A stretch of DNA of 64,000 bases from positions 1 to 64,000 of the forward strand of contig NZ_CBRF02000027.1 in the NCBI RefSeq assembly GCF_000470315.2. The letters run 5' to 3'. Below the pieces are notes generated by a model, which did no database searches, was not told the DNA's origin, and worked only from the letters and a program-made list of their open reading frames with translations. This DNA comes from Psychromonas sp. SP041. GTDB lineage: Bacteria; Pseudomonadota; Gammaproteobacteria; Enterobacterales; Psychromonadaceae. Of the stretch, positions 13,635 to 45,365 are shown in pieces. The first letter of the stretch is position 1, and the number at the start of each line of letters is the position of its first letter. The translations under genes were made by a program, and so were the position numbers.

Positions 13635-15014
13635 ATGAGCTTAAAATATAACTGGCAACATCCTAATTGGCCAAAATTTACATTTCAATCTAATGGTATT
13701 AACAAGATCATAAGTGAATATACTAAAATTTCTTCTAATCTTCAGGGGCAAGTTTCCCAACTTGATCAAAATAATAAATCTGAAGCCTATATATACTTAA
13801 TGGTTGAAGAAGCAATTAATACCAGTGAAATTGAGGGTGAAAACTTAAATCGTGAAGAAGTGCGTTCATCTGTTACTCGTTATTTAGATCTAGAATTATC
13901 TCAACCTAAAGGTATCTTCCATAAAGAAAATGGTATTGCTTCATTGCTTATTGATGTTCGCAACAATTTTACCAATAATTTATCTAAAGAAATTGTTTGT
14001 AGTTGGCATAAACTACTTTTAACAGGACAAGAGGATTATTGCGCTAGAAGAAATATTAAAGTAGGCGATTATCGTAATGGACCAGTAGATATTGTTACTG
14101 GTAATGGTGATTATGAAGAAGTGGTTTTCGAAGGACCTCCAGGTGAAACAGTTGAAATTGAAATGGCTGCTTTTATTGATTGGTACAATGAAACATCTCC
14201 ACTTAATGATAATAGCACATTCCTTCCCGGCCCTGTTCGCTCTGCAATTTCTCATATGTGGTTTACCTCAATACATCCTTTTGGTGATGGCAATGGACGT
14301 ATAGCTCGTGCCATATCAGAACATGCACTATTTCAGGATTTTGAAATACCACCTTTATTTAGTATATCTACAACAATTAATGAAAATATAGATGAATATT
14401 ACAAAATGCTTGCCGAAAGTTCTCGTATTAACCCATCTGTAGATCTAACCAACTGGGTAAAATGGTTTTCTGAAACAACAAAAAATGCCCAAGTTGATGC
14501 TAAAAACAAAATTGATTTCATCTTAAAGAAATCTATCTTCTGGGATCATCACAAAGATACAAGCTTAAATAAACGTCAGAAAAAAATCACTAGTAAGTTC
14601 TTTGATTTTGGCGAGAAAGGTTTGATTGAAAGTGGGATAAGCCCTGATAAATACCAGTCTATAACTAACTGTTCATCAGCTACAGCTACGCGTGATTTAA
14701 AAGATCTTGTTCAAAAAGGTATATTAACTCCATCTCAATCTGGTGGACGTAGCTTGCGTTACCATATAAACCTTATTGAAGAAAAGCCTGTATTTAATAT
14801 CTTTCCGAAAGGAAACGATAAAAAGTTAATAGAGATCAGTATCAGGAAATTATCAGAGGATATTCAGAGAAACATTAATTTTCATCAGTCTCCAAATAAG
14901 CAATTAAATAAACTTATTGATAAGTATAAAGTTTTTTCTGATGATAACCCTGAGCATCTAGAGAAATTAAATGAGCTATTATCACAACTTGATGATAGTG
15001 GATTTACACCATAA
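13635..15014 (+). CDS. Fic-domain protein (AMPylase type) with C-terminal winged helix
   Basis: This 459-aa protein is a Fic enzyme, a family that usually transfers AMP from ATP to target hydroxyls. The active loop HPFGDGNGR is complete at residues 214-222 (consensus HPFx[D/E]GNGR). The N-terminal inhibitory helix motif TSEIEG at 63-68 fits [S/T]xxxE[G/N], as in class II self-inhibited Fic proteins. Residues about 310-375 form a helix-turn-helix region (SSATATRDLKDLVQKGILTP). Operators lie just upstream, so it is probably autoregulated. It is the passenger of an IS1595 transposon. No separate antitoxin gene is visible, consistent with an internal inhibitory helix. Whether it acts as toxin, defence or housekeeping regulator is open. 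Confidence 0.9.
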   Translation: MSLKYNWQHPNWPKFTFQSNGINKIISEYTKISSNLQGQVSQLDQNNKSEAYIYLMVEEAINTSEIEGENLNREEVRSSVTRYLDLELSQPKGIFHKENGIASLLIDVRNNFTNNLSKEIVCSWHKLLLTGQEDYCARRNIKVGDYRNGPVDIVTGNGDYEEVVFEGPPGETVEIEMAAFIDWYNETSPLNDNSTFLPGPVRSAISHMWFTSIHPFGDGNGRIARAISEHALFQDFEIPPLFSISTTINENIDEYYKMLAESSRINPSVDLTNWVKWFSETTKNAQVDAKNKIDFILKKSIFWDHHKDTSLNKRQKKITSKFFDFGEKGLIESGISPDKYQSITNCSSATATRDLKDLVQKGILTPSQSGGRSLRYHINLIEEKPVFNIFPKGNDKKLIEISIRKLSEDIQRNINFHQSPNKQLNKLIDKYKVFSDDNPEHLEKLNELLSQLDDSGFTP

Positions 15015-21913: not shown

Positions 21914-22755
21914 ATGAATAACTTAGTAGAATTATTTTGTGATGTGGATAATTTTTGTCATCAATTTATACCTCAATTGGATTTATACCTCAATTGGAAA
22001 TACAACTCATCACTGATGGGATTCGTAAGCGAAAACGCAGTTCGGCAATATCTTTCGGTGAGAGGATGACCATTATGTTCTCATTTTATCAATCAAATCA
22101 CAGAGATTTCAAGAACTTCTACATCGGATTAGTTGAACGATATTGGACAGAGTACTTTCCAACTCTCATAAGTTATACCAGTCTTATCAATACTATGTCT
22201 GAACTTATTGCCCCTATGTGTGCTTATTTCCAAACAATTAAAGGTAAACCGACAGGGATTGCATTTGTCGATTCGACAAGTCTTAAGGGATGCCACAATA
22301 TTAGAATTCCTAGTAATAAAGTATTTGCTAAGACAGAAAAACGTGGGAAAGGTACGATGGCGTGGTTTTTCGGTTTTAAACTTCACCTTTTAAGTAATTA
22401 TCAAGGTTAAATCCTTGCGTTAAACATTAGTCCAGGTAGCACGAATGACGGTACACCAATACCTGATTTATGTAGAAATCTAGCAGGTAAGTTATATGCA
22501 GATAAGGGATATTGGAAATAAGTAAAAGAAAAACTAAAGATGTCAGATATTGATTTAGTCACGACTGTTCGTAAGAATATGAAAAAAATAGTAATATCAG
22601 CTTTCGATAGAGCTATGTTATCAAAGAGATAAATAATAGAAACGGTTAATAACCAACTAAAAAACATATATTAAATAGAGCATAGCCCCCACCGAAGTGA
22701 AAAAGGGTTTATGCTCAATGTTATTTCAGGAATAGTGGCTTATTGCCTAAAATAA
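21914..22755 (+). pseudogene. Dead IS982-family transposase
   Basis: The translation matches IS982 transposases: VDNFCHQFIPQL, then SFGERMTIMFSFYQSNHRDF, then FVDSTSLKGCHNIRIPSNKV, GTMAWFFGFKLHL and ISPGSTNDGTPIPDL. A perfect 17-bp tandem duplication (21964-21980 and 21981-21997) shifts the frame early. In-frame stops follow at 22408, 22519 and 22630. A pair of inverted 9-mers, TGCCCACCT and AGGTGGGCA, lies just upstream (about 21850-21913) in the probable left end. The element is beyond repair, so it is old. Confidence 0.85.
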
Positions 22756-23082: not shown

Positions 23083-23340
23083 TTGTTTGATGATATCGAT
23101 TTAACCTCTAATAAACTGGGAAAAAGTGAAAAGGCTAAAAATGAACTGATCACCACATTCTTAGGGCATTTAGATGAGATTGACTTCTGCCTTGATGATA
23201 CTGAGATTGATGTATTAGGCGATGCTTATGAATACCTGATTGGTCAGTTTGCCAGTGGTGCGGGTAAAAAAGCGGGTGAGTTCTATATAATGTCATCTTT
23301 ATTTTTACCCAACGAATGCCACCTTCATAAAGCTGCATAA
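23083..23340 (+). pseudogene. Fragment of a second HsdM methyltransferase
   Basis: The 85-codon frame matches an internal HsdM segment only: FDDIDLTSNKLG, then LDEIDFCLDDTEIDVLGDAY, then EYLIGQFASGAGKKAGEFY, the stretch just before the catalytic domain. The protein then changes to unrelated sequence and stops. It differs from the intact HsdM at 31890 (there NAYEFLIKHFAAGSGATAGE), so it comes from another type I system. It lies on the opposite strand, 4 bases from the end of the HEPN gene, marking a recombination joint. Confidence 0.8.
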
Positions 23341-23344
23341 ACTG

Positions 23345-24592
23345 TTACTCTTTGCCATGCATTTTTAAGGCTAGTTTTAGCTTTTCAATTTCTTCCTTTA
23401 TTTTATTTTTTTCCTTCGGGCTATCAAGAAACTTATTCGCTTCATCAATACTTTTAAAATCCTTTATAGACTTTACATAAAATAGAAACAATCTATAAAA
23501 ATAAAACTGAAGTTGAAATGCGAAGTTTTTAGCATTTTGATTTTCTAAACCTGAGTGAATATTTGAATTTCTATACTCTCTGATATGCTCTAAGATCTGA
23601 GCATGGTAATTATATTCTTCAAAGAGAAAAGAAATTCTTCGTGATATTGCATCGCAGTTGCTTTCACCTCTGGTCGCTAAAGTTTCTAAAGTAGCCCATA
23701 ATTTTACTACCGCAGTGTTTTGATCTTTTTCATCAAGAGATCTGACATAGCGAACAACTCCTTCGGTCAGAAGTGATTTATCTTTATGTTCTGCAATTGT
23801 GTTTATAAAAAAAAGAGTATTCTTGATAAGTAATTTAGGATTATTCAATTTTGAATTGTTAGCGGATACAAAGTTTGGTTCAAACCAATACAATTTATTC
23901 AATGCGGCATTGCCATTCTCTTCATGTAATGTATGGAATTTGCCAAGCCTAATAGTATTAACTGGCTTGTACGAGTCACCGACCATTTCCATTTTATAGT
24001 TAGTGAAAAGACATAATATTCCACGCCATAGATCTAAATCTTCAAGCGCTTGTTTAATTGCGCCATAAGGTGATTTCGATTTGCAGTAAACAATAACTTT
24101 TGAGTAATGGGTGTCTGAACCATTACTTTTTGACATATCATCTGCTTGTGATAATAAATCATTTCTTTGTACCTGATATTTTTTCGGGAAGTCAGCAACA
24201 ATATGAATTTGACTGTTGCCGACATTGAATTTTTTTTGTGGGTATGACAGAGGTAGTGATAATGAAGTAAGCACTCTATAATTTTTAATTTTTGTAGCTA
24301 AATGATCTCTTGCTAATCTATTCAAGTTTTCCAGTACAGTGTTGTTGTCTAGGTTTTCTTTTGCCGACTGAGTAACAGCTTTAGATATGAGAGAAGGTAA
24401 GTATAAATCTCGTGAAGCGTTTTTAATTTCAACCATATTTTCTAACGCAACAATGATTTCATGATAATCCCAGCCAACAAATGACACTTTTCCATCTGCC
24501 GTTACTTGAACTATTTGTGATAGCTTATCTAATAGAACTTGTGGTTTAAGGTTCTTCTTCCATGTGTATATAGGCTTAGCCATGATAGTCAC
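23345..24592 (-). CDS. HEPN-motif protein at the end of the type I R-M operon
   Basis: The 415-aa protein has an unassigned N-terminal two thirds. Its C-terminal helical domain (about residues 285-375) contains REYRNSNIHSGL, where Arg341 to His346 fits the Rx4-6H motif of HEPN ribonucleases, as in ApeA-like and abortive-infection proteins. HEPN proteins often cut RNA when defence is triggered. The start is GTG 24592, overlapping the upstream stop by 4 bases (GTGA); ATG 24583 is an alternative. It is the last gene of a seven-gene unit. RNase activity is inferred from the motif only. Confidence 0.65.
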   Translation of the reverse strand: MTIMAKPIYTWKKNLKPQVLLDKLSQIVQVTADGKVSFVGWDYHEIIVALENMVEIKNASRDLYLPSLISKAVTQSAKENLDNNTVLENLNRLARDHLATKIKNYRVLTSLSLPLSYPQKKFNVGNSQIHIVADFPKKYQVQRNDLLSQADDMSKSNGSDTHYSKVIVYCKSKSPYGAIKQALEDLDLWRGILCLFTNYKMEMVGDSYKPVNTIRLGKFHTLHEENGNAALNKLYWFEPNFVSANNSKLNNPKLLIKNTLFFINTIAEHKDKSLLTEGVVRYVRSLDEKDQNTAVVKLWATLETLATRGESNCDAISRRISFLFEEYNYHAQILEHIREYRNSNIHSGLENQNAKNFAFQLQFYFYRLFLFYVKSIKDFKSIDEANKFLDSPKEKNKIKEEIEKLKLALKMHGKE

Positions 24593-25446
24593 TCATTCAA
24601 ATACATCTCCGCCATATCATCCAGTTTGGATTTAACTTCTTTCCAATTAGGCATTACTTGGGTTAACAAACGCCAAAATTTGTCACTGTGGTTATGTTCT
24701 TCAATATGGCAAAGCTCATGCAATATCACGTAATCAATACATTCTTTAGGGGCTTTAATTAAATGAGGGTTGAGCATCAAATTACCTTTGGTAGAACAGC
24801 TTCCCCATTGCTTCTTCATAGCCATCACTCTAAATGATGGAATATCTGTTACCCATGTCGCTTTAGTTAACATTTTATTTAAGCGTTCATGAAAAATTGC
24901 TTTAGCTTTACGTTGATACCACTTGTCTATTAGTGGTTTAACTTTAACTACCCGATCATCATTATCTTGGCCTATTTCATGTTTAAGCGTTACGTTCAAT
25001 TTACCACGACTAAGCTTAACGTTAGACACTTGCTCAGAATCAATGAGAACTTTTAAAACATAGCGTCTGCCTAAGTAAAACTGGGTTTCACCGCTGACAT
25101 AGCGCTTGGGTAAAACGTAATCTTTTTGCTTTGCAAATTCTTCTATATTTTGCCAAATCCATCGGGCACGTTTTAGCATCGCATCTTGAATCGAATCATC
25201 GGTGGCATCATGTGGCACTGTTGCAACCACACGTTGATCGGGATGCACCTTTATTACCACCTTACGAGCAACAGCTTTACTAGAACTAAATTTACTACTT
25301 TGTGATTTACGTATCACATCATAATGAATCATGTCATTACCATAATAAAAAGCACCACGCTCATCCGTTTTAGTGTTGCTTTTTTTAGTAACAATGTCAG
25401 CCGCAATTGAAGAACTAGCACCTGTTAATGAATTCGCCATAACCAT
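24589..25446 (-). CDS. YgjP-like (DUF45) zinc metallopeptidase
   Basis: This 285-aa protein ends with the HExxH metallopeptidase site VILHELCHIEEHNHSDKFW (HELCH at 243-247, a third His candidate at 251-253). The upstream part matches the YgjP/DUF45 fold, with AMKKQWGSCSTKGNLMLNPH being the family's conserved block. This family often sits beside hsdR in type I restriction operons; its role there is not established. The start overlaps or abuts the hsdR stop and the stop overlaps the HEPN gene, so it is translationally coupled. Met3 (MANSLTG) is an alternative start. Confidence 0.85.
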   Translation of the reverse strand: MVMANSLTGASSSIAADIVTKKSNTKTDERGAFYYGNDMIHYDVIRKSQSSKFSSSKAVARKVVIKVHPDQRVVATVPHDATDDSIQDAMLKRARWIWQNIEEFAKQKDYVLPKRYVSGETQFYLGRRYVLKVLIDSEQVSNVKLSRGKLNVTLKHEIGQDNDDRVVKVKPLIDKWYQRKAKAIFHERLNKMLTKATWVTDIPSFRVMAMKKQWGSCSTKGNLMLNPHLIKAPKECIDYVILHELCHIEEHNHSDKFWRLLTQVMPNWKEVKSKLDDMAEMYLNE

Positions 25447-28400
25447 TAACCTCTTGATAAACCAAGGCGGGTAATTTTAAGCACTGCTTCAATGAGCTTT
25501 TCAGCGTTATCAATACCTATATCGCCAAATAACATCGGCAGTAATTTCATACTGATGGCATTTTCAATTTCGGCAGGGTTGATAGAGTATTCAGCTACTG
25601 CATTGTTAACCACTTCATCAATATTAAAAGCAAACTCTACTAATTTCTCATTATCTAATGATTGTTCGATTAAGTAGTCTGCGCCAAACACATGCTGAAA
25701 CAAACCAAAATAAGCTTGGGCATGTTTGTTTAACTTGCCTGAATCATCGGTAAAGTCGTTTGGTATATCGGCAATTTTTCGCTCCTTTACTTCTTGTTCA
25801 AAGTCAGCAAACAAGATGTATTGTTTAACTGGCGCATCAAACATTTCTTTGGTTTTCTCAATCGCTTTCTTTAACAGATTAGAAAAATACTCTTGTGCAT
25901 AAGGGTCATCAGCAAGATCTTCTTCAATCATCTTGGTGATGCGGCCCGTGATCTTGTCTGTTTGGTTTCGAGCTTCATCATCACTCAGATCTTGTGGCTT
26001 GACGTTTTTACCCAGATTACCAACCAAGTAAGCACCATCAGGTTCTTTTACCTCAATACCCGCAATATGTTTATCTAATAAGCTACGGATATCTTCAGCG
26101 TATTCATCGTAATTGACGGTTTCATTGGCATCTTCACGCACTTGTTTGCGTAAATCTACCAAGGCTTTTAAGTCACTTTTATACAAATCACGTTTGCTAT
26201 CGAAAGACTTATCTTCAAAGTAGCTAGCAGATTGTAAAGCGACCTTAATACAGTTAGAAAAAACAGTCAGGGCAGAGTAAAAGTCATCACGCTTTTTAAG
26301 ATTAGTATCAATCAGTTTACCATCTACATCCTGTACTTTAGGGGCTAATACTTGTCTTAATGCAGGGCCATCTTGCTTATTTTTAACATTAGCAAAAATA
26401 TCCCATAGCTCACTATGTAAGCCTGGTAACTTTTTATATTCCGTATCCATGCGGTTATACAAACCTTTAAGATCATCTATATCAAAGCCACCTTGGGTGC
26501 GTTCAGCCAAGTCTTGGTATTTTTCAATGGTGGTATCTAGTTCTTTAAGAATGCCACGGTAATCAATTAAGTAACCAAACTGCTTTTTACTATGTAAACG
26601 ATTTACGCGTGCAATAGCCTGTATCAGATTGTGCTCTTTAAGTGGCTTGTCGATATAAAGTACCGTATTTTTAGGCTCGTCAAAGCCCGTTAGTAGCTTA
26701 TCGACCACTATCATGATGTCTGGGCCATCGTCACGGCTAAAATCTTCTATAATGGCTTTTGTGTAAGCTTTTTCATCGCCCCCATAGGTTTGCGCTACGT
26801 TACCTTTCCACCAGTTTTGAACGATGTCTTTGCTGTCTTGATCAACAACGTCATGGCCTTCACGGGTATCAGGCGGTGACATAGCTACAACAGAAGTCAA
26901 AGATCCTATTTTATCTAATGCATTCTTATAGCGAATAGCCGAGGCTTTAGAGTCACAGGCCAGTTGGCCTTTTAAACCTTGCTGTTTGAAGTTTTGAAAG
27001 TGATCAGAAATATCATAAGCAATCAGATCAATTCGGCCTTCAGCTTGGTAAATTTGACCTTTTTGTGAAAACTTTTTCTTTAAATCAGTTCGTTGTTTTT
27101 CGCTTAATTTACTGGTGCTGCGCTCAAACCAAGCATCAATGGCTTTGTCATTCACGTTTAACTCAGGAATGCGCTCTTCGTATAATAAAGGCGTTACGGT
27201 TTTATCTTCAACGGCTTGTTGCATGGTGTAAGAGTGAATAATTTTACCGAACTTGTTTTCGGTCTTATCATCTTTTAATAGTGGCGTACCTGTGAATGCA
27301 ATAAAGGCAGCTTTGGGCAGTGTTTGCTGCATTCGAATATTGTTTTCACCGTTTTGACTGCGATGACCTTCATCTACTAATACAATAATATTGGGACTGT
27401 CGTTAAAGCATTCTTTTTGCTTAATGGCTGAACCAAACTTATTAATGATTGAAAAGATAACACGTTCATTACCTTTACCAATTTGCTCGGCTAAACGCTT
27501 GCCAGATGTTGCCATAGCATCTTTTTTATCTCTGTCAGTCAGTACACCACCAGAGGCAAAAGTACGGCTAAGCTGATCTTCTAAGTCAACTCGGTCAGTT
27601 ACGATGATCACACGAACTTGTGATAGCTCTTCCAACCAAACAAGGGCTTTGGATAAAAACACCATAGTAAACGACTTACCGCTGCCCGTTGTATGCCAAA
27701 TAACACCGCCTTCACGAGCACCTGCTGCGTCAAAGGTATTAATGCGTTCAACTAAAGCTTTAATGCCAAATACTTGCTGATAACGAGCGACAATTTTGCC
27801 TGCTTTCTTATCGAACAAAGTAAACAATCGGGTCATCTCAAGTAAACGCTCAGGGCGTAATAAACTGATGATCAGTCTATCTTGGTCGGTAACGATTAAA
27901 TCACCTGCGGATATTAACGATAAGTAGTCATCTTTAGCGTAAGCAGGTCGATGATTGAACAAACTATTAAGCTGTTTATCATTAAGACTACGATTTTTTA
28001 AGCGAACAAACTCAGCTTCAGGTATTAACTCTTCTTTCCACTTTGCCCAGAATTTTTCAGGTGTGCCGCATGTAGCATATAAACCTTCGTGCCCATTAAC
28101 CGATAACAGTAACTGGCTATAAGCAAACAAGTGTGGAATTTCTTGCTGTCCTTGATTGCGAATTTGCTGAGAAATTGCCTCGGCATTGGTCGATTTACCT
28201 TCTTTATTAGAGTCAGGGCGTTTTACCTCAATCACCACTAAAGGTAAGCCATTTACAAAACAAACGATATCAGGAATGCGATTACCAGTGCCTTCAGCAT
28301 TTTGTACAACCAATTCTTCAGTAAAATGGAATTGGTTGTTTTCGATAGTGTGCCAATCTATAAGCTGAATAGTCGGAGAGGCTTTTTTTCCATCAACAAA

Positions 28401-28748
28401 CTCAGTAACACTCACGCCATACATCATAGCGTTATAGAGCTTTTCATTAGCGGCTTTAAGCCCTAAATTCATTGCTGGGTTTAACTCGTGCATCACTTTA
28501 TCAATTGCGGCCTCAGTGAGCTTGTGTTGTTTGCCAGCAAAGGGAAAGGTTTGTTTAGCTAAAAACTCGCGCATTACAGGCATTAACACCACTTGATGGG
28601 TGCTTTTTTTATCTGCCACAAATGGATTGCCACGTAAGGCTTCACACTCACTAGGCGGAATAAATTGATAACCTAAATTAGTAAGCAAGGTTAGTGCAGG
28701 GATTTTTGAGCTAAATTCTTCTTGGAAATTAAGTGTATTATTTATCAT
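25446..28748 (-). CDS. hsdR: Type I restriction endonuclease subunit R
   Basis: This 1,100-aa protein is the motor and nuclease subunit of a type I restriction-modification complex. An N-terminal PD-ExK nuclease is visible as RIPD160 and VVIE174VK176. The superfamily 2 translocase follows, with Walker A TTGSGKS at 353-359, the DEAD-box-like VDEGHRSQ at about 460, and further helicase motifs including AIARVNRLHSK near 710. The C-terminal helical part is the usual assembly region. The ATG overlaps the end of the OLD-type gene by 4 bases. It acts with HsdM and HsdS to cut unmethylated foreign DNA. Confidence 0.95.
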   Translation of the reverse strand: MINNTLNFQEEFSSKIPALTLLTNLGYQFIPPSECEALRGNPFVADKKSTHQVVLMPVMREFLAKQTFPFAGKQHKLTEAAIDKVMHELNPAMNLGLKAANEKLYNAMMYGVSVTEFVDGKKASPTIQLIDWHTIENNQFHFTEELVVQNAEGTGNRIPDIVCFVNGLPLVVIEVKRPDSNKEGKSTNAEAISQQIRNQGQQEIPHLFAYSQLLLSVNGHEGLYATCGTPEKFWAKWKEELIPEAEFVRLKNRSLNDKQLNSLFNHRPAYAKDDYLSLISAGDLIVTDQDRLIISLLRPERLLEMTRLFTLFDKKAGKIVARYQQVFGIKALVERINTFDAAGAREGGVIWHTTGSGKSFTMVFLSKALVWLEELSQVRVIIVTDRVDLEDQLSRTFASGGVLTDRDKKDAMATSGKRLAEQIGKGNERVIFSIINKFGSAIKQKECFNDSPNIIVLVDEGHRSQNGENNIRMQQTLPKAAFIAFTGTPLLKDDKTENKFGKIIHSYTMQQAVEDKTVTPLLYEERIPELNVNDKAIDAWFERSTSKLSEKQRTDLKKKFSQKGQIYQAEGRIDLIAYDISDHFQNFKQQGLKGQLACDSKASAIRYKNALDKIGSLTSVVAMSPPDTREGHDVVDQDSKDIVQNWWKGNVAQTYGGDEKAYTKAIIEDFSRDDGPDIMIVVDKLLTGFDEPKNTVLYIDKPLKEHNLIQAIARVNRLHSKKQFGYLIDYRGILKELDTTIEKYQDLAERTQGGFDIDDLKGLYNRMDTEYKKLPGLHSELWDIFANVKNKQDGPALRQVLAPKVQDVDGKLIDTNLKKRDDFYSALTVFSNCIKVALQSASYFEDKSFDSKRDLYKSDLKALVDLRKQVREDANETVNYDEYAEDIRSLLDKHIAGIEVKEPDGAYLVGNLGKNVKPQDLSDDEARNQTDKITGRITKMIEEDLADDPYAQEYFSNLLKKAIEKTKEMFDAPVKQYILFADFEQEVKERKIADIPNDFTDDSGKLNKHAQAYFGLFQHVFGADYLIEQSLDNEKLVEFAFNIDEVVNNAVAEYSINPAEIENAISMKLLPMLFGDIGIDNAEKLIEAVLKITRLGLSRG

Positions 28749-30670
28749 GCGCCTTGTCCCTCTGCATTTGCTTCATTGTCTGGCACAGCAAGTACGCCAA
28801 GCTGAGTGAACAACTGTTTTAACGATGGAACTAAATCATCAATTGATGCTATAAATTCGATATATTTATTAAAAAGTATTGATGCTACTTCTTCATCTTT
28901 ATTTGAAGTTCTAATAAAAAGAGACTGTTTTATTTTGGATTCAAGTTGAATCACGAAATCTCTAATCAACGGTTTTGACATCACTCGTTCTGGTTTAAAT
29001 TGACCATCGTCAGACCAAGAGCGCATAACTTCAACAAACTGTAAGTTTTCAAACTCAGGTCTGTTGTTTTTCTGTCCATTGAAACGCTCTTCGACAGATT
29101 TATTTAATGGTGAATCAGGGTTGCGTATATCAGCGGAGAGTTGTTGTAATAGATCTACTATATGAATTTCTGTCTCAGCATCAGGTAAAAAGTCAATCAA
29201 TGAACAAATATACCTTTTGAATATTGTTATATCTGAAAAGATCACTGATTCAATACAATACCCTTCATGACTATGTGGAGTACATTTTTTTCCAATGATT
29301 ATATTTTTCAGACTTTCATCAATAGCTGCTGTTGAGAAATCTCTGTCAAATATTGCATTCCACGACTTCCCCTTTATTAAGGATGATAATGTACGCTTGT
29401 TATATTCAATCTTTTTGACAATATTATCTTTTCCTCTTAAAGGAAAGAAAGTTACTTCCGACAAACATCCTTGAACAGGATGAATCTCTTTAATTTTTCG
29501 ATTAATCAAATGAAGGTAACTAGCATCATCGCTCCCTTCAACAAAAGCTATATGTTTAGCTTGATTTAATAACTCTAGCGATAATATTACTCCACCAAGA
29601 GCATTCTTTATTGCATCAAAGCCTGTAATATCAATTGGCTCTAGTGAACCAGAATGCTTAGCGTCATCACTTAAAAAGAAAACTTCTCCTTCTCCAGCAT
29701 TTGTAACAAATTGGTCATTATGACTGATGACAAAAAACTGGTTGTGATCGATCTTTCTTAGGTGATTCAATAAATTTTGTTGCAGTTTAGAATGGATATG
29801 TGAGTCAGGTTCATCAACTAATAGTAGTTTTAAAGGAGCATCAATAAATTCAACGGTGGCTAATATCTCGACTATTTGTAAAAAGCCACTGCCTTGTAAA
29901 TGAAGATCATATGGTTTAGAACCATTAACTGAAACATCAAGGCGGACATATTCATCTTTTTCTCGTCTGGTAGTTGGTGGTAGGGTAAATTTAACCTCTT
30001 TTTCAACTATTTCTGAAATACTTGCTTCTAGGTCAGAAATGGACTTTCTTTTAGATATGATTTTATTTCTTAAAACTTCATGAGAAGAGCCTTTTTGTAT
30101 TTTCTTCTTAATTTGGGCCTCGTTGTAATATGGCTCAAACTGATGGACTCCAGCCACAGGTCGAGTTTGATAAATAAAAATGGCTTCATCTAAAAATTTA
30201 CCTGCGCCACAAAACGCTTCAGCAAAAGCGGTAAACTGTTCCTCATCTGTTGGCTGGACACGATAAAAAGCATTTTCTATCGAGCTTGGACAAGTTACCT
30301 TAAACCCTAAGTTCCAAGTTTGAGCTTCTTCCTCATCATTGGTTAAGGCAATAGTAATTTCAGAACACTTTCCAAGCTCAGGATCTTTAGGGTTATGAAA
30401 TAAGTCTTCGTCTTTCGTTATCCTTAGAAAGTCTAAATCTTGATAGTTTACATATCGATTAGTAGATTTTTTGACCTTGTAAAATCCTTTTCTTGAGCCA
30501 AGAATATAAGTTTGATAACACTTTTCCCACAAATGAATTGCTTCAAAAACGGTAGATTTACCTGAGCTATTTTCACCAATAATGATATTAAAATCTGGAT
30601 TGGGATGTATAGAAATCTCTGCGAATGTTTTGAAGTTCTTTAAATTTATATAGCTAATTCTTAATTTCAT
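28745..30670 (-). CDS. OLD-family ATPase with Toprim nuclease domain
   Basis: This protein of about 641 aa has an ABC/SMC-type ATPase: Walker A GENSSGKST at residues 32-40, a signature-like LQGSGFLQIVEIL at 258-270, and Walker B LKLLLVDEPDSHIHS at 281-295. A Toprim domain follows, with HIAFVEGSDDASYLHL (Glu378) and the metal motif DRD at 442-444. This is the layout of OLD nucleases, the same scaffold as GajA of Gabija. It lies between hsdS and hsdR, in the same operon. I chose ATG 30670 over the TTG at 30679; it overlaps hsdR by 4 bases. A role as an added effector is inferred. Confidence 0.85.
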   Translation of the reverse strand: MKLRISYINLKNFKTFAEISIHPNPDFNIIIGENSSGKSTVFEAIHLWEKCYQTYILGSRKGFYKVKKSTNRYVNYQDLDFLRITKDEDLFHNPKDPELGKCSEITIALTNDEEEAQTWNLGFKVTCPSSIENAFYRVQPTDEEQFTAFAEAFCGAGKFLDEAIFIYQTRPVAGVHQFEPYYNEAQIKKKIQKGSSHEVLRNKIISKRKSISDLEASISEIVEKEVKFTLPPTTRREKDEYVRLDVSVNGSKPYDLHLQGSGFLQIVEILATVEFIDAPLKLLLVDEPDSHIHSKLQQNLLNHLRKIDHNQFFVISHNDQFVTNAGEGEVFFLSDDAKHSGSLEPIDITGFDAIKNALGGVILSLELLNQAKHIAFVEGSDDASYLHLINRKIKEIHPVQGCLSEVTFFPLRGKDNIVKKIEYNKRTLSSLIKGKSWNAIFDRDFSTAAIDESLKNIIIGKKCTPHSHEGYCIESVIFSDITIFKRYICSLIDFLPDAETEIHIVDLLQQLSADIRNPDSPLNKSVEERFNGQKNNRPEFENLQFVEVMRSWSDDGQFKPERVMSKPLIRDFVIQLESKIKQSLFIRTSNKDEEVASILFNKYIEFIASIDDLVPSLKQLFTQLGVLAVPDNEANAEGQGA

Positions 30671-30682
30671 AACCGTCAATCC

Positions 30683-31900
30683 CTAGACTAAAACCCTGCG
30701 CTTACCTGTTAACAACTGCTGCATTAACGCTTTTTTCTCTTGTTTTAGATCGGCAAGTTGTTGTTCTAGTAATTCGATTTCTTTATGGGAATTAGTTAAC
30801 GTAGCTGCTATTTTTTGTTGCTCTTCTAGTGATGGTAGTTTTACAAAGCAGTGACTTATTTCACCTAAGTTTATTTTCTTTGGGAAGGCTACATGAATTG
30901 TTCGTTTCCATAATTCTCTGTGAAACTCTTTAGAATTAATGTAATAAGTTAGATAGTTGGAATCGAATTGCACATTAGACTTAAAAAGAGCCAAACTAAC
31001 ATAAAAAGAAGCTTGTACATCCCAAGTCAAACACTTGGCTGTTCCAATATCTCCGATCCTTGTCATCAATATATCGTTTCTTTCTAGCTTCACTCGTTTG
31101 TTCTCTTTTTCAAATACGTCTTCAGAAATAAACTTTGTACGTGAGAAATCATTGCGTGTTAAGTGCTCAACACTATAAAAGGGAACTCCTTTCTCTACAT
31201 ACTTTGGTGTACTGTGTGTACCATCATAGATCTTGGTGAGTTGACCAACTTCAATCTCTTCCCACTCACCCTCAAACGGTTTACCTGAATTATCAAGTAG
31301 GCGCTTTCTTTGGGTATGAGCGCCTGTGAGTAATTGTTGCATTAAGGCTTTTTTCTGCTGCTTGCTGTTGTCGATTAGGCGCTCGGTGATGCTAATCGCT
31401 TTATCCCAAGTTCCAAGGATAGTGGCGATTTTTTGTTGTTCTGGGAGTGGTGGGGTTAAAATTTTTGTAGACTTGATAGTTTTTAACGACAAATTTTTAA
31501 TCGTTGAACCAGTCAGTTCAGATGTATAAAAAGACTGAGTTTTGGAACTTTTTAAAGCGTAGTAAATATAATCTACGTCTGTACACTCGGCTACATTGAT
31601 ATAACAAGCACTCTTGCCAAGAACCACATTTTCTCCATTATAATATGCTAGGTTGCCGATAGTGCCATTAATAGACATTAGGATTGTCCTATTAGTTAAA
31701 TCGCGCCAATGTTTTTCCGCATTTTCAGCACAAACGTTTTTAGTTCCTTCAGTAATTTTTATTGAACCATTTTTTAAATTATTACCGTTCACAAAATAAA
31801 TACCAGAAGATTCAACATACTTAGGAGTTGAATGAATTCCATCACTGATTTTTGTACTTAGTTCGTATAAGTGCTTATTTTCCCATCCATTAGGCACCAT
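30683..31900 (-). CDS. hsdS: Type I restriction-modification specificity subunit
   Basis: This 405-aa protein has two target recognition domains separated by conserved helices. TRD1 spans about 1-150 (SDGIHSTPKYVESSG), followed by LPEQQKIATILGTWDKAI and QQKKALMQQLLTGAHTQRK. TRD2 spans about 205-350 (IYDGTHSTPKYVEKG), followed by LEEQQKIAATLTNSHKEI and EKKALMQQLLTGKRRV. The two TRDs share the motif G-x-HSTPKYVE, so the halves may read similar half-sites. It overlaps hsdM by 11 bases and sits 12 bases upstream of the OLD-type ATG. Confidence 0.93.
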   Translation of the reverse strand: MVPNGWENKHLYELSTKISDGIHSTPKYVESSGIYFVNGNNLKNGSIKITEGTKNVCAENAEKHWRDLTNRTILMSINGTIGNLAYYNGENVVLGKSACYINVAECTDVDYIYYALKSSKTQSFYTSELTGSTIKNLSLKTIKSTKILTPPLPEQQKIATILGTWDKAISITERLIDNSKQQKKALMQQLLTGAHTQRKRLLDNSGKPFEGEWEEIEVGQLTKIYDGTHSTPKYVEKGVPFYSVEHLTRNDFSRTKFISEDVFEKENKRVKLERNDILMTRIGDIGTAKCLTWDVQASFYVSLALFKSNVQFDSNYLTYYINSKEFHRELWKRTIHVAFPKKINLGEISHCFVKLPSLEEQQKIAATLTNSHKEIELLEQQLADLKQEKKALMQQLLTGKRRVLV

Positions 31901-33407
31901 AACCCAACTCCTTTAAGTAGCCTTCCATTTCTGCTTCAAGGGTATTGAGTTCATTTTTAAGCTCAACACGCTCAGTACGTACTGTCACCAAATCAATTTC
32001 AGCTTCTTCTTCAAAGGTATCAACATAACGAGGAATATTGAGGTTAAAATCATTTTCAGCAATTTCATCAAAACTGGCTAGGTAAGCATATTTATCAACA
32101 GTTTCACGGGCTTTATAAGTATCGATGATTTTTTGAATATTATCTGGTGTTAATTGGTTTTGATTTTTGCCTGATTTAAACTCACGGCTGGCATCAATAA
32201 ACAACACATTATTATCCGTTTTTTGCTTTTTAAAGAGCAAAATAGCGGCTGGAATACCTGTACCAAAGAATAGTTTTTCTGGTAAACCTATAACGGTATC
32301 AAGTAAGTTTTCTTCAATAAGTTGTTGACGAATTTTACCTTCAGATGATGCTCTGAATAACACGCCATGCGGTACAACTACACCCATGCGACCTGTTTCT
32401 GGTTTAAGGGTTTCAATCATGTGGCTGATAAACGCATAATCACCTTTGGTTTTAGGTGGTACGCCTCGTCTAAATCTGCCGTATGAATCACTGCTAGCAT
32501 CTTCATGCCCCCATTTTTCAAGAGAAAATGGTGGGTTGGCTGTGACGATGTCAAAGTGTAATAAACCTATACCGTCTTTATCTAATAACTGAGGGTTGCG
32601 AATAGTGTCTCCCCATTCAATACGGTGGTTATCTTCACCGTGCAGGAACATGTTCATTTTGGCTAGTGCCCAAGTTGCACCAATGGCTTCTTGACCAAAT
32701 AGCGCATATTTTTTTGAACCTGAGTTTTTACGCACCATTGCGCCACATTTTAATAATAATGAGCCACTACCGACACACGGATCACATATTTGATCACCCT
32801 CAACTGGCTCTAAAATGATTGCGAGTAAGTCTGAAACTTCTGGCGGAGTGTAGTATTCACCTGCGGTGGCACCACTGCCAGCGGCAAAGTGTTTAATGAG
32901 GAATTCGTAGGCATTACCAATAACATCTAAACTGCCCACACGCTCCGAGCTTAAGTTAAGAATGTCTTTGCCGAAATCTTCTAATAAGTGACGCAGTAAA
33001 TCGTTCTTTTGTTTTTCTTGGCCTAATTTGTCGGTATTAAAACTGATGTCTTGGAATACGTTTTTAAGCTTAGTGCCGTTGGCTTCTTCTAAAGCATGTA
33101 GTGCTTGGTCAATACGTTGCCCGTTACCTGCTTGGTGACGTTGTTCGTATAAATCCCAAAAGCTAGCACCTTGAGGTAATACAAAACGCTGCTTAGACAT
33201 CATGGCTGTTATTAATTTCGGATTATCGCCATATTGCTCAACTAGCTTGCTGTGATCGTCTTTATAAATATCAGAGATGTATTTTAAGAACAACATGGTC
33301 AACACGAAGTCTTTGTAGGTATCTGCGTTGATAACACCTCTAAAGGTGTCGCAAGCGGCCCATACTGCTTTGTTGATATCGTCCTGATTGATTTGGCTAT
33401 TTGGCAT
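31890..33407 (-). CDS. hsdM: Type I restriction-modification DNA methyltransferase subunit
   Basis: This protein of about 505 aa is an N6-adenine methyltransferase. It has the HsdM N-terminal helical domain, then the SAM-binding motif I DPCVGSGSLL at about 209-218 and the catalytic motif IV NPPF at 291-294. YYTPPEVSDLL just before the catalytic domain is typical. The frame is open from 33464, but the ATG at 33407 (MPNSQINQDD) is preceded by AAGGA at good spacing, so I use it. It methylates host DNA with HsdS, and is needed with HsdR for restriction. Confidence 0.94.
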   Translation of the reverse strand: MPNSQINQDDINKAVWAACDTFRGVINADTYKDFVLTMLFLKYISDIYKDDHSKLVEQYGDNPKLITAMMSKQRFVLPQGASFWDLYEQRHQAGNGQRIDQALHALEEANGTKLKNVFQDISFNTDKLGQEKQKNDLLRHLLEDFGKDILNLSSERVGSLDVIGNAYEFLIKHFAAGSGATAGEYYTPPEVSDLLAIILEPVEGDQICDPCVGSGSLLLKCGAMVRKNSGSKKYALFGQEAIGATWALAKMNMFLHGEDNHRIEWGDTIRNPQLLDKDGIGLLHFDIVTANPPFSLEKWGHEDASSDSYGRFRRGVPPKTKGDYAFISHMIETLKPETGRMGVVVPHGVLFRASSEGKIRQQLIEENLLDTVIGLPEKLFFGTGIPAAILLFKKQKTDNNVLFIDASREFKSGKNQNQLTPDNIQKIIDTYKARETVDKYAYLASFDEIAENDFNLNIPRYVDTFEEEAEIDLVTVRTERVELKNELNTLEAEMEGYLKELGYGA

Positions 33408-33476
33408 TTTTTTATTCCTTGTATAACTATAGATTCGTTTGTTTAGTCGATTGTTTTTTATCAACTTGATTGCTCA

Positions 33477-34109
33477 TTACGCTGTTAACGCTTTGTATGC
33501 AATCGCATCAAGTTGTTGTTGTCTGTTTTCAATGAGTTGCTGTAATACTTTTTGTTCTTTTACTCCGCAGCGGTGCATAGCTGTTAATTGTCGTTGTTTT
33601 TCTATTGGCAGCATTGTAATAGGCACATATTCTAAAATTTGCCTACGTACACTCAAATAAAGTGAGCCTTCTGCCGTTGTCTGAAAATAGCGCTGTGCAG
33701 GGAGTTGATTTAGTTGCCAGCATATAAATTCTGGCGTCACTAACTCTTTAAATGCTAGTTTTATTCGTACTAAAAAGAAATGTGGTGAGCACACCGTTTG
33801 CTTTGGTAAGTCTTCTACCACTGCGGAATAATGTTTGGCTCCTTTTGCCACAAAGAGTATATCTCCAGACTTTAACCAATCGGGCTGTTTTTTACTTGTT
33901 AGCGTGGTTTTGATCAATTCATCCTGAACTATCTCACCAGTGGCTTTTGTGTTTCGAACCTGTACAACATGCACATCACCATTGATATCTGGCTCTATAG
34001 AGCCCCTAAATGGGTGTCCTGAACAGATATGTGCAATATCACCAAGCCTAGTACCATGAGTAGCGTCATAAATACTCGTATTCATTAGATTTTTAACCTT
34101 GTTGGGCAT
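33477..34109 (-). CDS. Single-TRD HsdS-like protein, first gene of the operon
   Basis: This 210-aa protein resembles half of a specificity subunit. It has one target recognition domain (GTRLGDIAHICSGHPFRGSI onwards, with DWLKSGDILFVAKGAKHYSA) and one conserved helical tail (YVPITMLPIEKQRQLTAMHR, then EQKVLQQLIENRQQQLDAIA). It lies 12 bases before the open frame of hsdM. Half-size S subunits can act as dimers or swap with full-length HsdS. Having a half S and a complete HsdS in one operon is unusual. It may also be a remnant that was kept. Confidence 0.75.
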   Translation of the reverse strand: MPNKVKNLMNTSIYDATHGTRLGDIAHICSGHPFRGSIEPDINGDVHVVQVRNTKATGEIVQDELIKTTLTSKKQPDWLKSGDILFVAKGAKHYSAVVEDLPKQTVCSPHFFLVRIKLAFKELVTPEFICWQLNQLPAQRYFQTTAEGSLYLSVRRQILEYVPITMLPIEKQRQLTAMHRCGVKEQKVLQQLIENRQQQLDAIAYKALTA

Positions 34110-34255
34110 TTTATTGATCTATGGGCAAACATATCTAGCCAATAAGTACTTTGAAGGCACTTATTGACACTTATTTAATTTATCCTTAATTATATTGACT
34201 TAGATGCAAGTAAATATCAATCATTTTATGCAGTATTTAAATATAGCAATTTGTA

Positions 34256-35697
34256 TTGACAGGCATTCATTTCGACACCATATTTAATGCTATATTGAAA
34301 TGGATCATTAAATATGAGCGGAAATTTACCAAAAGTTGTAAAAAAACCGTTAATTTAGGAAAGTTGCCTTATTTTTCTGATGTTGATGAGAATGGAAAGC
34401 ACATAGTTATGTTCCATCAAGATCATATTGTTGATCGATTTCCAAGAGTATTATCACTAACGCGAGTTGTAGATGCGCTAGAAATTAACTTATTTTTGGA
34501 ACACAGGTACAAAGGTTTGTTTATGCCACCCCAGCGAGGCGGTAAAAAGAACGCTTTGGGTCGGGTGTCGCTTGTTACCATGCATTCATTGGCAAATTCG
34601 ATGTCTTTATTTTTACAATGGATAGAATTACATAACGTTGATTGGCATGAAGTATATGCGGTGAGTGATAGCGATAAATCTAAATATTGGTTGCCTGTGT
34701 ATCGTTATCGTAAGTACCTTATTGATCAGATTATTACTAAGAAAATTGATAGAGATACAGCAAATTTGTATATCAATCATGTGCGTCAATTTTACGAATG
34801 GGCTAGAAAGCAACACCGCATTGAGAAGCTTCCTTTCAAATATAAAACAAAAGTGATTAAGAAAAAACGTAAAGACGGCAACATTCATTTATTGTTCACT
34901 CAATATGGTGCTGAAGAAAAAGGCTTTACTGTCACCACTACAGATCTATTGATCCCCAAAAAATACAAGCAGAAAAAATCTACCGATACGAGTTTATCAC
35001 CATATGATCAAGATGAGTTGCAGTTACTTTATACCAGTAATGCACTAAGTAAACTTGGGCCAAGATTAAGAGTAGATTTAGCGGTGCAATGTGGACTTAG
35101 GGCAGATGAGGTGGCAACTTTTGAAGCTAACCATGTTGTTGATCCTGCTCTTAGTGATAAATCTATTTACTTCGTCACTATTATTGGTAAGTACGATAAA
35201 GAACGCACCATCATGGTTTCAAAAGGATTAATAACATCATTATGGTTAACCGTAACGATGAAGAGCATCAACACAGACTTTCGAAGTGGCAATTAGCCAA
35301 AGGCAGTTGTGATTATGCGCCTTTGTTCTTAAATCGCTCAGGCAATTTTATGTCACCTAAATCAGTTGGAAATGTGATCTCTAAAGTACGTAAAGAACTT
35401 AGGCTTGTTGGAAAGGTATTGAAACGTGATTTCCACTACTTGCGATCAACATTTGCCACAAACCTTGCTGGCTTTTTGATCCATAAAAACCTGCCTATTG
35501 GCTTTGTGCAATTCAAACTAATGCAGTTAATGGGTTATGCTGATTTTTCGACAACACAAAAATATATCAACTTTGCTCGTTCTTTAACATTTGATAAGCA
35601 AATGGCAAGTTGGGTAGACAAATTGTTTGGTGAGTTTGTTGCACCGTTACAAGAAGACGCATTTAAAGCAGAGATCGAGGCAGACGCTAATGCTTGA
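34256..35697 (+). pseudogene. Tyrosine recombinase interrupted by a frameshift
   Basis: Two overlapping frames (34256-35296 and 35242-35697) form one tyrosine recombinase of about 480 aa. The first part has the core-binding region and the first catalytic Arg in VQCGLRADEVATF. The second part has FHYLRSTFAT (HxxR) and MGYADFSTTQKYINFA with the nucleophile Tyr; the usual His before it is replaced by Asp or Tyr. The shift lies between about 35242 and 35290. It is divergent from the R-M operon and overlaps a small partner gene, an arrangement recalling integrase sets of defence-carrying gamma-proteobacterial islands. The shift may be decay or a sequencing error. Confidence 0.75.
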
Positions 35698-36251: not shown

Positions 36252-36662
36252 ATGAAGTTTATTCCCATTACAGCAAGTGCAGGAATTACCGGCTTTGAAA
36301 GTCCTGCCAGTGATTATCTACAACTTCCTCTCAGTCTCGATGCGTTGCTCATCGAGCATCCAAGCGCTACCTTTATTGGCAAAGCGTATGGTCATTCTAT
36401 GCAGGGTGTTGGTATTTTTAGTGGTGATGTCTTGATTGTTGACCGCCATGTCACAGCAAAAGATGCCGATGTCATTGTTGCCAACCTGAATGGTGAATTT
36501 ATTTGTAAAATTATCAATATAAAAGAGCGTCTTTTACTCTCTGCAAACAAACAATATAAAACAATTCCAATTAATGAAAATGACCAATTTACGATTGAAG
36601 GGGTGGTTATCCGCTCTATCCGCTGTCACCGTCCTAGCCAGCTTTTAGAGGCGCATATTTAG
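36252..36662 (+). CDS. umuD: UmuD-like SOS mutagenesis protein
   Basis: This 136-aa S24-family self-cleaving protein is the partner of the Y-family polymerase. The catalytic Ser49 is in YGHSMQGVG and the Lys86 in EFICKIIN, at the same 37-residue spacing as in E. coli UmuD (60/97). The block TGFESPASDY aligns with the residues just after the RecA-stimulated cleavage site. The N-terminal arm before it is therefore about 10 residues shorter than in E. coli. It has a LexA box and overlaps umuC by one base. Confidence 0.9.
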   Translation: MKFIPITASAGITGFESPASDYLQLPLSLDALLIEHPSATFIGKAYGHSMQGVGIFSGDVLIVDRHVTAKDADVIVANLNGEFICKIINIKERLLLSANKQYKTIPINENDQFTIEGVVIRSIRCHRPSQLLEAHI

Positions 36663-37918
36663 TGTTTGCTTTAATTGATGCCAATTCATTTTACTGTAGT
36701 GCAGAGCAAGTCTTTAGGCCTGAATGGCGAGGTAAGCCCATTATTGTTTTATCTAATAACGACGGCTGTATTGTTGCTGCGAATAAACAAGCACTCGCAT
36801 TAGGCATCAAAAAATTTCAACCATTTTTTAAAGTACAACGATTTTGTGAGCAAGCCGGCATCATTGTTTGCTCTTCTAATTACGAGCTTTATGCTGATTT
36901 ATCCCACAAAATGATGCAAGTCATTGCTCGGTTTGGCCCTGAGCAATATATCTACTCGATTGATGAATCTTTCTTAAATTTTAATGGTTGTAATCAGGCC
37001 ATCCCAGATTTAGCCCTACATGCTCAAAAAATACGTCTTGCTGTTTGGAAAGAAACGCGTTTACCTGTTTGTGTTGGTATTGGGAAAACACTTACCTTAG
37101 CAAAGGTCGCTAATCACGTTGCTAAAAAATGGCCCGGATTTAATGGTGTTTGTGTATTTGATGACAATGCATTTAAACAAGAAGTGTTTGAACAACTATC
37201 GCCTAGCGATGTATGGGGTATTGGTAAAAAAACGAATGAAAAACTAAAGCAAAATGGTGTTGTAAACGTTCGCCAGTTAAGTGAGTTGAATATAAAAAAC
37301 CTACCTGTTGGTTTTAATGTGGAATTAGACAGAACGATTCAAGAGTTGAATGGTACGGCTTGCAAATTATGGGATAGCGTCAGAGCCGACAAACTACAAA
37401 TATTCTCTACAAGAAGTTTAGGAGCGCGAATCACAAGTATTGAATCTCTAAACCAAGCATTAGCAAAGCATGCGAGTATCGCCGCTGAAAAAGCCAGAAA
37501 GCAAGGTTCATTATGCGGTACGTTATTAGTCTTTGCGGCGAATAGTCCCTTTGATGACAATCCATGTAGCTATAAATTTTTACATCATTTTAATCCTGCT
37601 ACTAATGATACTACTCATTTTCTTAAAGCAATAAGTGATTATATTTACCTTATTTTTAATCCAAGCATTGCTTATTATAAAATAGGCGTTGGGTTACTCA
37701 ATTTAAGCAGTGAAACACATCAGCAGTGGGATTTATTTAATCCCCCACATGGAAATGCGCCATTAATGAATGTGCTTGATAATATTAATCAACGCTATGG
37801 CACTAATAGCGCATTTTTTATAGCGCAAGGGATCGCTGAAAAATGGGCAATGCGTAGAAACCTGCTGACACCTCAATACACCACTAACTGGCATCACATT
37901 CCGTATATTTCTTGTTAA
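36662..37918 (+). CDS. umuC: UmuC-like Y-family DNA polymerase V subunit
   Basis: This 418-aa translesion polymerase starts with FALIDANSFYCSAEQVFRP (first catalytic Asp). YSIDESFLNF holds the second Asp-Glu pair, and VCVGIGKTLTLAKVANHVAK plus VWGIGKKTNEKL mark palm and HhH regions. The C-terminal UmuC-specific region is present. The start is GTG in the context TAGTG, sharing one base with the umuD stop, so the two are coupled and damage-inducible. Mobile umuDC pairs of this kind are common on plasmids and integrative elements. Confidence 0.93.
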   Translation: MFALIDANSFYCSAEQVFRPEWRGKPIIVLSNNDGCIVAANKQALALGIKKFQPFFKVQRFCEQAGIIVCSSNYELYADLSHKMMQVIARFGPEQYIYSIDESFLNFNGCNQAIPDLALHAQKIRLAVWKETRLPVCVGIGKTLTLAKVANHVAKKWPGFNGVCVFDDNAFKQEVFEQLSPSDVWGIGKKTNEKLKQNGVVNVRQLSELNIKNLPVGFNVELDRTIQELNGTACKLWDSVRADKLQIFSTRSLGARITSIESLNQALAKHASIAAEKARKQGSLCGTLLVFAANSPFDDNPCSYKFLHHFNPATNDTTHFLKAISDYIYLIFNPSIAYYKIGVGLLNLSSETHQQWDLFNPPHGNAPLMNVLDNINQRYGTNSAFFIAQGIAEKWAMRRNLLTPQYTTNWHHIPYISC

Positions 37919-45174: not shown

Positions 45175-45344
45175 TGTAACACGCTGAATCCTATTTTGTG
45201 TATGTGTTACATTGAGTGTTACATTAAAACGTGGATTCTACAAGATGGTAATAGACGTTCTGGGATTCCTTAAAGGCTAAAATAGCTGATTTTAGTGGCT
45301 TTAATAGGTGTTTGGGTACTTTACGGGACGTTATGAAACAAGAG

Positions 45345-45365
45345 AGTGGTGCTCGCTACTGGACT
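45345..45365. other. Putative inner att core within the tRNA 3' end
   Basis: AGTGGTGCTCGCTACTGGACT is shared, but for one base, with 371-391. It covers the CCA end, acceptor strand and part of the T arm, the common crossover region for P4-type integrases. Confidence 0.6.

Follow-up and report, generated by a model that had tools for sequence, protein, structure and literature searches.

Organization of the operon

The sequence analyzed is a stretch of 64,000 nucleotides of Psychromonas sp. SP041 (contig NZ_CBRF02000027.1; hereafter the window), and its subject is an operon of seven genes that couples a type I restriction-modification system to further defense-like genes. All seven open reading frames are on the minus strand, read from 34109 to 23345: half-S comes first, followed by HsdM, HsdS, ATPase-Toprim, HsdR, YgjP, and HEPN-like. 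The spacings between them, in transcription order, are +12, −11, +3, −4, −1, and −4 bases. The first-pass annotation of this DNA had placed seven genes here on one strand with gaps or overlaps of up to about 70 bases; strand and coordinates were confirmed, and the spacing is tighter than claimed. The genes are listed below, with slot 1 denoting the gap between hsdS and hsdR, slot 2 the position 3' of ygjP, and pLDDT the predicted local distance difference test score.

33477–34109, minus strand: half-S, 210 amino acids, a single target recognition domain and a presumed helical domain (PADLOC Specificity_I, 2e-12)
31890–33464, minus strand: HsdM, type I N6-adenine methyltransferase (N6_Mtase 1e-102, HsdM_N, NPPF motif)
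30683–31900, minus strand: HsdS, complete specificity subunit carrying two recognition domains (Methylase_S twice)
28745–30679, minus strand: slot 1 cargo, fusion of an ABC-type ATPase and a Toprim/DUF4435-like part, resembling AriAB of PARIS (AAA_21, 52.3 bits)
25446–28748, minus strand: HsdR, translocase-nuclease (HSDR_N, SWI2_SNF2, and NCBIfam TIGR00348 above cut-off)
24589–25446, minus strand: YgjP/DUF45 zinc metallopeptidase, core partner of HsdR (PF01863, 7e-57)
23345–24592, minus strand: slot 2 cargo, HEPN-like putative RNase (R341-x4-H346 motif, model pLDDT 85.6)

The identities proposed at first reading for HsdM, HsdS, HsdR, the ATPase domain, and the YgjP/DUF45 peptidase all exceeded the Pfam cut-offs, and the HELCH motif named for the peptidase is present, HExxH being found in 36 of the 36 YgjP frames surveyed. 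By Pfam and NCBIfam, the operon contains the HsdM, the HsdS with two recognition domains, and the HsdR translocase that define a type I restriction-modification system. These data support a type I system with extra defense-like genes in an apparent single transcription unit. Because the full seven-gene set was found again in Glaciecola pallidula, the coupling is not a quirk of one genome.

A conserved core with exchangeable cargo

A search of the 295 genomes of the order with HsdR gave 27 matches in 26 genomes at E ≤ 1e-200. These 27 loci (the window, L008, and 25 others), together with nine annotated plasmid loci, make up the 36 loci surveyed. Since the plasmid loci were chosen through matches to YgjP, its presence there is uninformative, and only the 27 loci picked with HsdR count for it: in every one of them, YgjP is directly 3' of HsdR. 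HsdM and HsdS precede in all 26 HsdR-picked loci that are not interrupted by a contig end (L075 is the exception), and the half-S is found 5' of HsdM in 16 of the 27 (21 of the 36 overall).

The hsdS–hsdR gap holds at least one frame of at least 80 amino acids in 32 of the 36 loci (L052, L053, and L097 are empty, and L075 meets a contig end); within the HsdR-picked loci, slot 1 is occupied in 25 of the 27 (L097 empty, L075 ended by the contig). The ATPase-Toprim and HEPN-like genes themselves were detected by tblastn in two of the 36 loci, those of the window and of Glaciecola, the HEPN-like gene of the latter lying just past the edge of L008, in L007 and L012. The gene-order survey proposed in the first-pass annotation therefore had a divided outcome: the peptidase is co-conserved, while the OLD (that is, ATPase-Toprim) and HEPN genes are not.

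Both slots together yielded 70 listed cargo frames, and Pfam was run on 30 of them, on the two of the window, and on the Glaciecola ATPase, and PADLOC on 10; some of the frames scanned gave no match. Slot 1 cargo across the loci includes a SMODS cyclase with a SAVED-HNH effector (CBASS), PtuA-like and other AAA_21 ATPases, KAP NTPases, a YhcG nuclease, SIR2 with HerA, RhuM, Schlafen-AlbA, and a dCTPase/deaminase-type protein. For example, G187, whose HsdR is 97% identical to that of the window, carries a CBASS cyclase and a SAVED-HNH effector in this position. A GIY-YIG-like gene also occupies slot 1 in Glaciecola, as read by eye, and in Alteromonas, where it is annotated.

Slot 2 contains a coupled frame of at least 100 amino acids in 14 of the 36 loci (15 with Glaciecola), that of L056, among the 14, being a transposon gene. 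The slot 2 genes of L052, L054, and L077, which overlap ygjP or lie just 3' of it, were rejected as HEPN relatives because they match TniQ, above the cut-off only in L077. TnsD is annotated upstream in L052 and L054, and together with the TniQ-like genes this gives a hint that Tn7-like elements carry the cassette. On a Methylobacter plasmid, an ATPase distantly related to that of the window is located 3' of ygjP. From this survey of gene order and cargo, the fixed core comprises HsdM, HsdS, HsdR, and YgjP, and the remainder is exchangeable.

The ATPase-Toprim protein of slot 1

In PARIS, the ATPase is recognized at thresholds of 32 bits for AAA_15 or 27 bits for AAA_21 (PMC9122126), and the ATPase part of the slot 1 protein exceeds both, with 41.8 and 52.3 bits. 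In its Toprim part, residues E381, D384, D445, D447, and E477 are invariant in the seven aligned ATPase-Toprim sequences; the Toprim glutamate that had been named as Glu378 is conserved in all seven, with the numbering corrected to Glu381 in the 644-residue frame. The fused AriAB model of PADLOC matched at 1.4e-18, and the mad3 and NsnB ATPase models scored higher. The protein is 81% identical between the window and Glaciecola. Some match to it exists in 131 of the 295 genomes of the order; whole-protein coverage was obtained only in the window and Glaciecola, the next-best match reaching 52 bits with partial coverage. Copies 72% identical to it occur on two viral contigs among tail genes, P2-like by eye. 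No complete E. coli genome that was searched with a prophage homologue of the gene gave a match.

The protein had first been read as Gabija-like OLD. The OLD label is not wrong, and the proposal has been made to count PARIS itself as an additional class of OLD (PMC10568477); the Gabija part is doubtful, given the weak DUF4435 match and the lack of a GajB helicase neighbor. Membership in Gabija was rejected, as no UvrD-like GajB helicase adjoins the gene, which is flanked by those for HsdS and HsdR. Judged by its sequence, the slot 1 protein is PARIS-like in architecture, and a fused PARIS (AriAB)-like guard fits better than Gabija. The AAA_21 match with its weak DUF4435 companion, the invariant acidic residues, and the copies on viral contigs all speak for such a guard. 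The abortive arm set off by inhibition of restriction, as originally suggested for the operon, is plausible for this gene.

Several observations weigh against the PARIS-like assignment. The C-terminal half matches DUF4435, the family of AriB in PARIS, with only 16.3 bits (E 0.0087), and the Glaciecola homologue with 21.2 bits (E 0.00026), so that both are below the Pfam cut-off of 27. Its predicted structure, from a four-row alignment, is unusable (pLDDT 36.6), and the profile of its C-terminal part had no match in the PDB. It is possible, though we consider it the less probable reading, that the protein is a DNA-cutting nuclease of the OLD or Gabija type and not a PARIS-type guard, since its ATPase profile also matches PtuA (73 bits), OLD 6p74 (56), AriA (52.5), and GajA (48) among the best 60 of 231 matches in the PDB. 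The best PDB stretches among the matches listed, however, fall in the ATPase region, the GajB partner is absent beside the gene, and DUF4435 is the sole Toprim-type family among the family matches listed.

The half-S subunit and the palindromes upstream of it

The half-S, which the first-pass annotation had listed without further comment, turned out to be the gene that revealed most. It matched no Pfam family at E ≤ 0.001, and matched the PADLOC type I specificity models at 2e-12. Single-domain S subunits dimerize and, together with HsdM, recognize and methylate interrupted palindromes (PMC3874165), and the length of the half-S, its specificity-model matches, and the palindrome described below would fit this homodimeric type. 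In EcoKI, neither S nor M alone binds DNA (PMC3874165). The half-S of the window is 86–87% identical to that of G187 and 64% to that of Glaciecola. The HsdS recognition domains are only 25–26% identical between the window and G187, and HsdS is approximately 36% identical between the window and Glaciecola, versus 91% for HsdM. Over the 21 loci with a half-S, identity of the half-S correlates with that of HsdM (Spearman 0.44 over 210 non-independent pairs), while the correlation is weak or absent for the two HsdS recognition domains (0.14 and 0.08). The HsdS domains are thus swapped and the half-S diverges gradually, which suggests a fixed target for the half-S. A half-S also adjoins hsdM on plasmids of gamma-, alpha-, and betaproteobacteria.

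Across the relatives, an interrupted palindrome lies upstream of the half-S, typically GCATCA-N7-TGATGC, with N6 variants; the variant of the window's clade has an N6 spacer and TACTGC as its right half. The consensus was composed after viewing the 21 half-S loci (the derivation loci). In these, 12 exact sites fall within 6,510 upstream bases (9 of the 21 loci), versus none in 428,153 other bases; with up to one mismatch there are 20 sites in 12 loci (0.26 expected), and with up to two, 27 sites in 15 loci (3.95 expected). Upstream of HsdM in 14 loci without a half-S, one of which (L091) contributed only 62 bases, there are no sites at up to one mismatch. With the consensus fixed beforehand, 11 later loci gave 10 sites at up to one mismatch in 8 loci, versus 0.16 expected. 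These were fetched after the consensus was composed and consist of L111 and ten plasmid records (L140–L149) from Aeromonas, Acinetobacter, Methylobacter, Methylomonas, Gluconobacter, Komagataeibacter, Acetobacter, Moellerella, Sphaerotilus, and Bartonella, nearly all hand-picked from 54 half-S-matching records to span organisms; L150 was dropped before counting as a near-copy of L052. Variant perfect palindromes are present in L143 and L149, and none in L146.

Two copies of the site (up to two mismatches), 53–77 bases apart, occur in 12 of the 21 derivation loci and 6 of the 11 later ones. On a half-S tree of 31 rows, from which L142 was left out and for which site labels were assigned by eye, the type of site changes 7 times, versus a shuffled mean of 15.7, and none of the 200 shuffles was as low. 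For the window itself, the site is:

34230–34247, minus strand: candidate operator GCTATATTTAAATACTGC, 138 bases 5' of the half-S start, two mismatches to the consensus

On these grounds we tentatively propose, at somewhat short of an even chance, that certain type I systems of alpha-, beta-, and gammaproteobacteria form a class in which a dedicated half-S, together with HsdM, serves as an autoregulator. A (half-S)2-HsdM2 complex would bind, and probably methylate, interrupted palindromes, often paired, within the promoter region of its operon, which would thus be controlled, along with its entire cargo, by epigenetic feedback from its own methyltransferase. The evidence for this autoregulator is stronger in the relatives than in the window, and of all the parts it is the one that would surprise a specialist. 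In the literature searched, at the level of listings and abstracts, no autoregulatory role of a half-S was found, which is not proof of its absence.

A number of results count against this proposal. The window has a lone two-mismatch site, by itself no better than chance, and since it has two mismatches and a single copy, it carries little weight; support for it rests on the one-mismatch copies in the nearest relatives, L073 and L008. The promoter position is presumed, because a promoter scan near the half-S gave 4 sites versus 3.5 in shuffles. Six of the 21 half-S loci (L054, L057, L059, L086, L089, and L097) have no site at up to two mismatches, and the 14 loci without a half-S carry 7 two-mismatch sites in 7 loci. 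A count of palindromes that ignores the motif shows only a mild excess (13 versus 4.7 in the derivation loci and 12 versus 2.6 in the later set); control gap lengths are raised about equally in the derivation loci (12 versus 6.1 and 21 versus 10.9), but not clearly in the later set (4 versus 4.1 and 11 versus 8.0), and the loci without a half-S give 6 versus 3.0. The half-S of the later locus L140 is near-identical to that of the derivation locus L084; by arithmetic, its removal leaves 9 sites in 7 of 10 loci, versus approximately 0.11 expected. On the tree, the N6_TGA class (3 rows) is unclustered, the labels were set by eye, and near-copies favor clustering. Exact GCATCA-N7-TGATGC sites occur in 140 of the 295 genomes, mostly one to three in each, and for this reason a single site is not diagnostic, and the exact palindrome was rejected as a genome-wide marker of the half-S. 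Finally, the covered parts of PMC3874165 report homodimeric S subunits only in type IC.

Five of the site-less loci form one clade, and in four of them other frames reach or enter the half-S start, so that the operon may begin with a gene other than the half-S. In L059 and L086, of this clade, small proteins encoded 5' of the half-S share YQINYDLRKQRNY, and may represent an alternative regulator.

Two other explanations of the half-S have to be weighed. According to the first, it is simply an additional specificity subunit, through which HsdM gains a second, palindromic target for methylation and restriction, and the promoter sites are incidental. Subunits with a single target recognition domain do yield functional palindromic specificities (PMC3874165), and exact sites are present elsewhere in genomes; the half-S domain, however, is not exchanged as the HsdS domains are, and the concentration of sites just 5' of the half-S, with their frequent pairing, is not required of an incidental target. 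We regard this explanation as unlikely. According to the second, which we hold to be improbable, the half-S is what remains of a decayed HsdS, and a different regulator uses the palindromes, as might be argued from its shortness, the missing Pfam match, and the half-S loci without a palindrome; against it are the open frame kept in 21 loci with gradual divergence tracking HsdM, its position beside hsdM on plasmids of three proteobacterial classes, and the clustering of site type with half-S type.

The HEPN-like protein of slot 2

The Rx4-6H motif that led to the HEPN reading was borne out, as R341, N342, N344, and H346 do not vary among the 14 aligned sequences (window included). No Pfam, PADLOC, NCBIfam, or PHROG model matched the protein at E ≤ 0.001, the closest HEPN-like family being DUF4145 (E 0.13). 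The predicted structure, of fair confidence (pLDDT 85.6), is alpha/beta toward the N-terminus and helical toward the C-terminus, with modeled helices between residues 252 and 374, and the motif ends the helix 327–347 (local pLDDT approximately 71). Weighing against the HEPN reading, a Foldseek search with this model retrieved neither solved nor viral structures at E ≤ 0.001. Membership in a standard HEPN family was rejected, with no match to a family model, a fold, or a PDB sequence.

The gene is present in 4 of the 295 genomes of the order (its own included) and in 1 of the 369 genomes of the class (its own). Outside the window, 13 homologues were found, on at least nine genome-contig loci (a lower bound, as that scan used one short pattern), one plasmid, and three viral contigs; none was found in phage records. 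The three viral-contig copies are surrounded by phage-type genes, with frames read by eye. Only one of the 13, the Glaciecola copy (75% identical, tblastn), sits in an hsd operon. The HEPN-like gene behaves as a rare, portable single-gene mobile element. Among its other surroundings, the homologue on the viral contig L064 is beside a UmuC/LexA-like pair (by eye), a GIY-YIG-like gene (by eye) is directly 5' of the homologue in another Psychromonas (L010, 8816–10631), and on a Nostoc plasmid (L099, 976–7866) a HEPN gene lies inside a BREX operon that also encodes a distant relative of the window's ATPase.

These distributions bear on the first-pass interpretation of the seven proteins as one layered system, in which the peptidase or a failure of restriction activates the Toprim and HEPN arms. 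The tight coupling (overlaps of 1–4 bases at the last three junctions) and the recurrence of the whole set in Glaciecola, along with two additional genes (GIY-YIG-like and RhuM-like by eye), speak for it. With both genes missing by tblastn from 34 of the 36 loci that share the core, one HEPN homologue in 13 in such an operon, and CBASS instead in G187, this interpretation has little chance of being right; a fixed seven-gene machine is disfavored, and the claim of a new, co-conserved system was mostly wrong.

Comparison with known systems

The operon is a variant within a published kind of type I island, in which defense cargo separates hsdS from hsdR and a metallopeptidase gene lies 3' of hsdR. 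One close counterpart is the RRDM island of E. coli E2348/69, with the order RptR-HsdM-HsdS-DarT2-DarG2-HsdR-M48 (PMC12255303). Both have seven genes, the same core order, a defense module in the hsdS–hsdR gap, a metallopeptidase after hsdR, and a regulator, here a putative one, as the first gene. As described there, the two differ in that the first gene there is RptR, which binds TAGCTA repeats, and here a half-S, and in that the cargo of RRDM is a toxin-antitoxin module, whereas here it is an ATPase-Toprim gene plus a HEPN gene in an extra slot. The RRDM-like order from HsdM to the metallopeptidase is found in our operon; RptR as the first gene is not. In three Vibrio plasmids, the first position is held by a DUF6088 gene with an AbiEii-type partner, and this, like RptR in the E. 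coli island, fits a regulatory position for the half-S. The R-linked open reading frames of Campylobacter offer one more parallel.

In the type I cluster of Vibrio cholerae VPI-2, TgvAB is between hsdS and hsdR (PMC11411939). It is likewise an independent defense system embedded in a type I cluster, with cargo that also occurs alone elsewhere, but that cargo is type IV restriction, and the sections covered describe no half-S. EcoprrI with PrrC is the classic embedded guard against restriction inhibition (PMC12707154); it too places a guard within a type I locus, although PrrC, by that account, is a tRNA anticodon nuclease of a different family. PARIS (AriA/AriB) was described from a hotspot of P4 satellites, and fused forms exist (PMC9122126). 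The likeness to the slot 1 protein is the fusion of an AAA ATPase with a DUF4435-like part; unlike here, a location in an hsd operon is not described in the passages concerned, and the DUF4435 match of our protein is sub-threshold. The homodimeric S subunits of EcoR124I(delta50), EcoDXXI, and NgoAV (PMC3874165) share with the half-S the single recognition domain, and read interrupted palindromes with HsdM; according to that source they replace the full S, in type IC, while here the half-S comes first, beside a full HsdS.

Genomic surroundings

A divergent recombinase is next to the upstream region of the half-S:

34256–35697, plus strand: tyrosine recombinase, in two overlapping frames

Relatives of it adjoin the half-S in three loci (L008, L053, and L080) and a weak relative does so in L083, and because of this it may be what moves the cassette. 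A tyrosine integrase with an arm-binding domain (43933–45422) adjoins a tRNA-Val gene, so the operon may lie in an island inserted at a tRNA; a search of the window for an exact repeat of the tRNA-Val 3' end, which would mark the island end, found none. Facing the end of the HEPN gene is an HsdM fragment of 85 amino acids (23083–23340, plus strand), the probable remnant of another type I system, and near it a transposase fragment (DDE_Tnp_1_3; 21955–22410, plus strand). An umuD/umuC-like pair (36252–37918, plus strand) is near the operon, and a Fic-family protein with DUF4172 is encoded at 13635–15014 (plus strand).

Proposed explanation and significance

The gene order, the division into core and cargo, the conserved catalytic motifs, and the association of half-S and palindrome across relatives, all observed in the sequences, are best explained, in our estimate with slightly better than even probability for the whole, by a mobile type I cassette with a fixed core (HsdM, HsdS, HsdR, and the YgjP peptidase), exchangeable slots, a guard, a HEPN effector, and a half-S autoregulator. 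In this explanation, the two positions in the hsdS–hsdR gap and 3' of ygjP would accept unrelated defense modules, and we infer every biochemical activity, trigger, promoter position, and direction of regulation. The fused ATPase-Toprim protein of slot 1, most likely PARIS-like, would be idle while restriction works; upon encounter with a phage anti-restriction protein, its nuclease half would stop translation or growth. The HEPN-type RNase of slot 2 most likely acts alone, as an abortive-infection effector. The half-S most likely dimerizes with itself, binds HsdM, and recognizes the interrupted palindrome in its own promoter region. Being made first, with HsdM, it would form a complex that senses the level of HsdM and marks its own promoter region, and a rising HsdM level or methylation of the site would turn the operon down.

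It has long been asked how a type I system can become active in a new host without harming it. If the half-S and HsdM read the promoter region of their own operon, the methylation machinery would itself contain the control. The hsdS–hsdR gap of the operon family surveyed is a rich site of exchange for defense genes, and its cargo of unknown function, together with the HEPN family 3' of ygjP, provides candidates for new defense genes.

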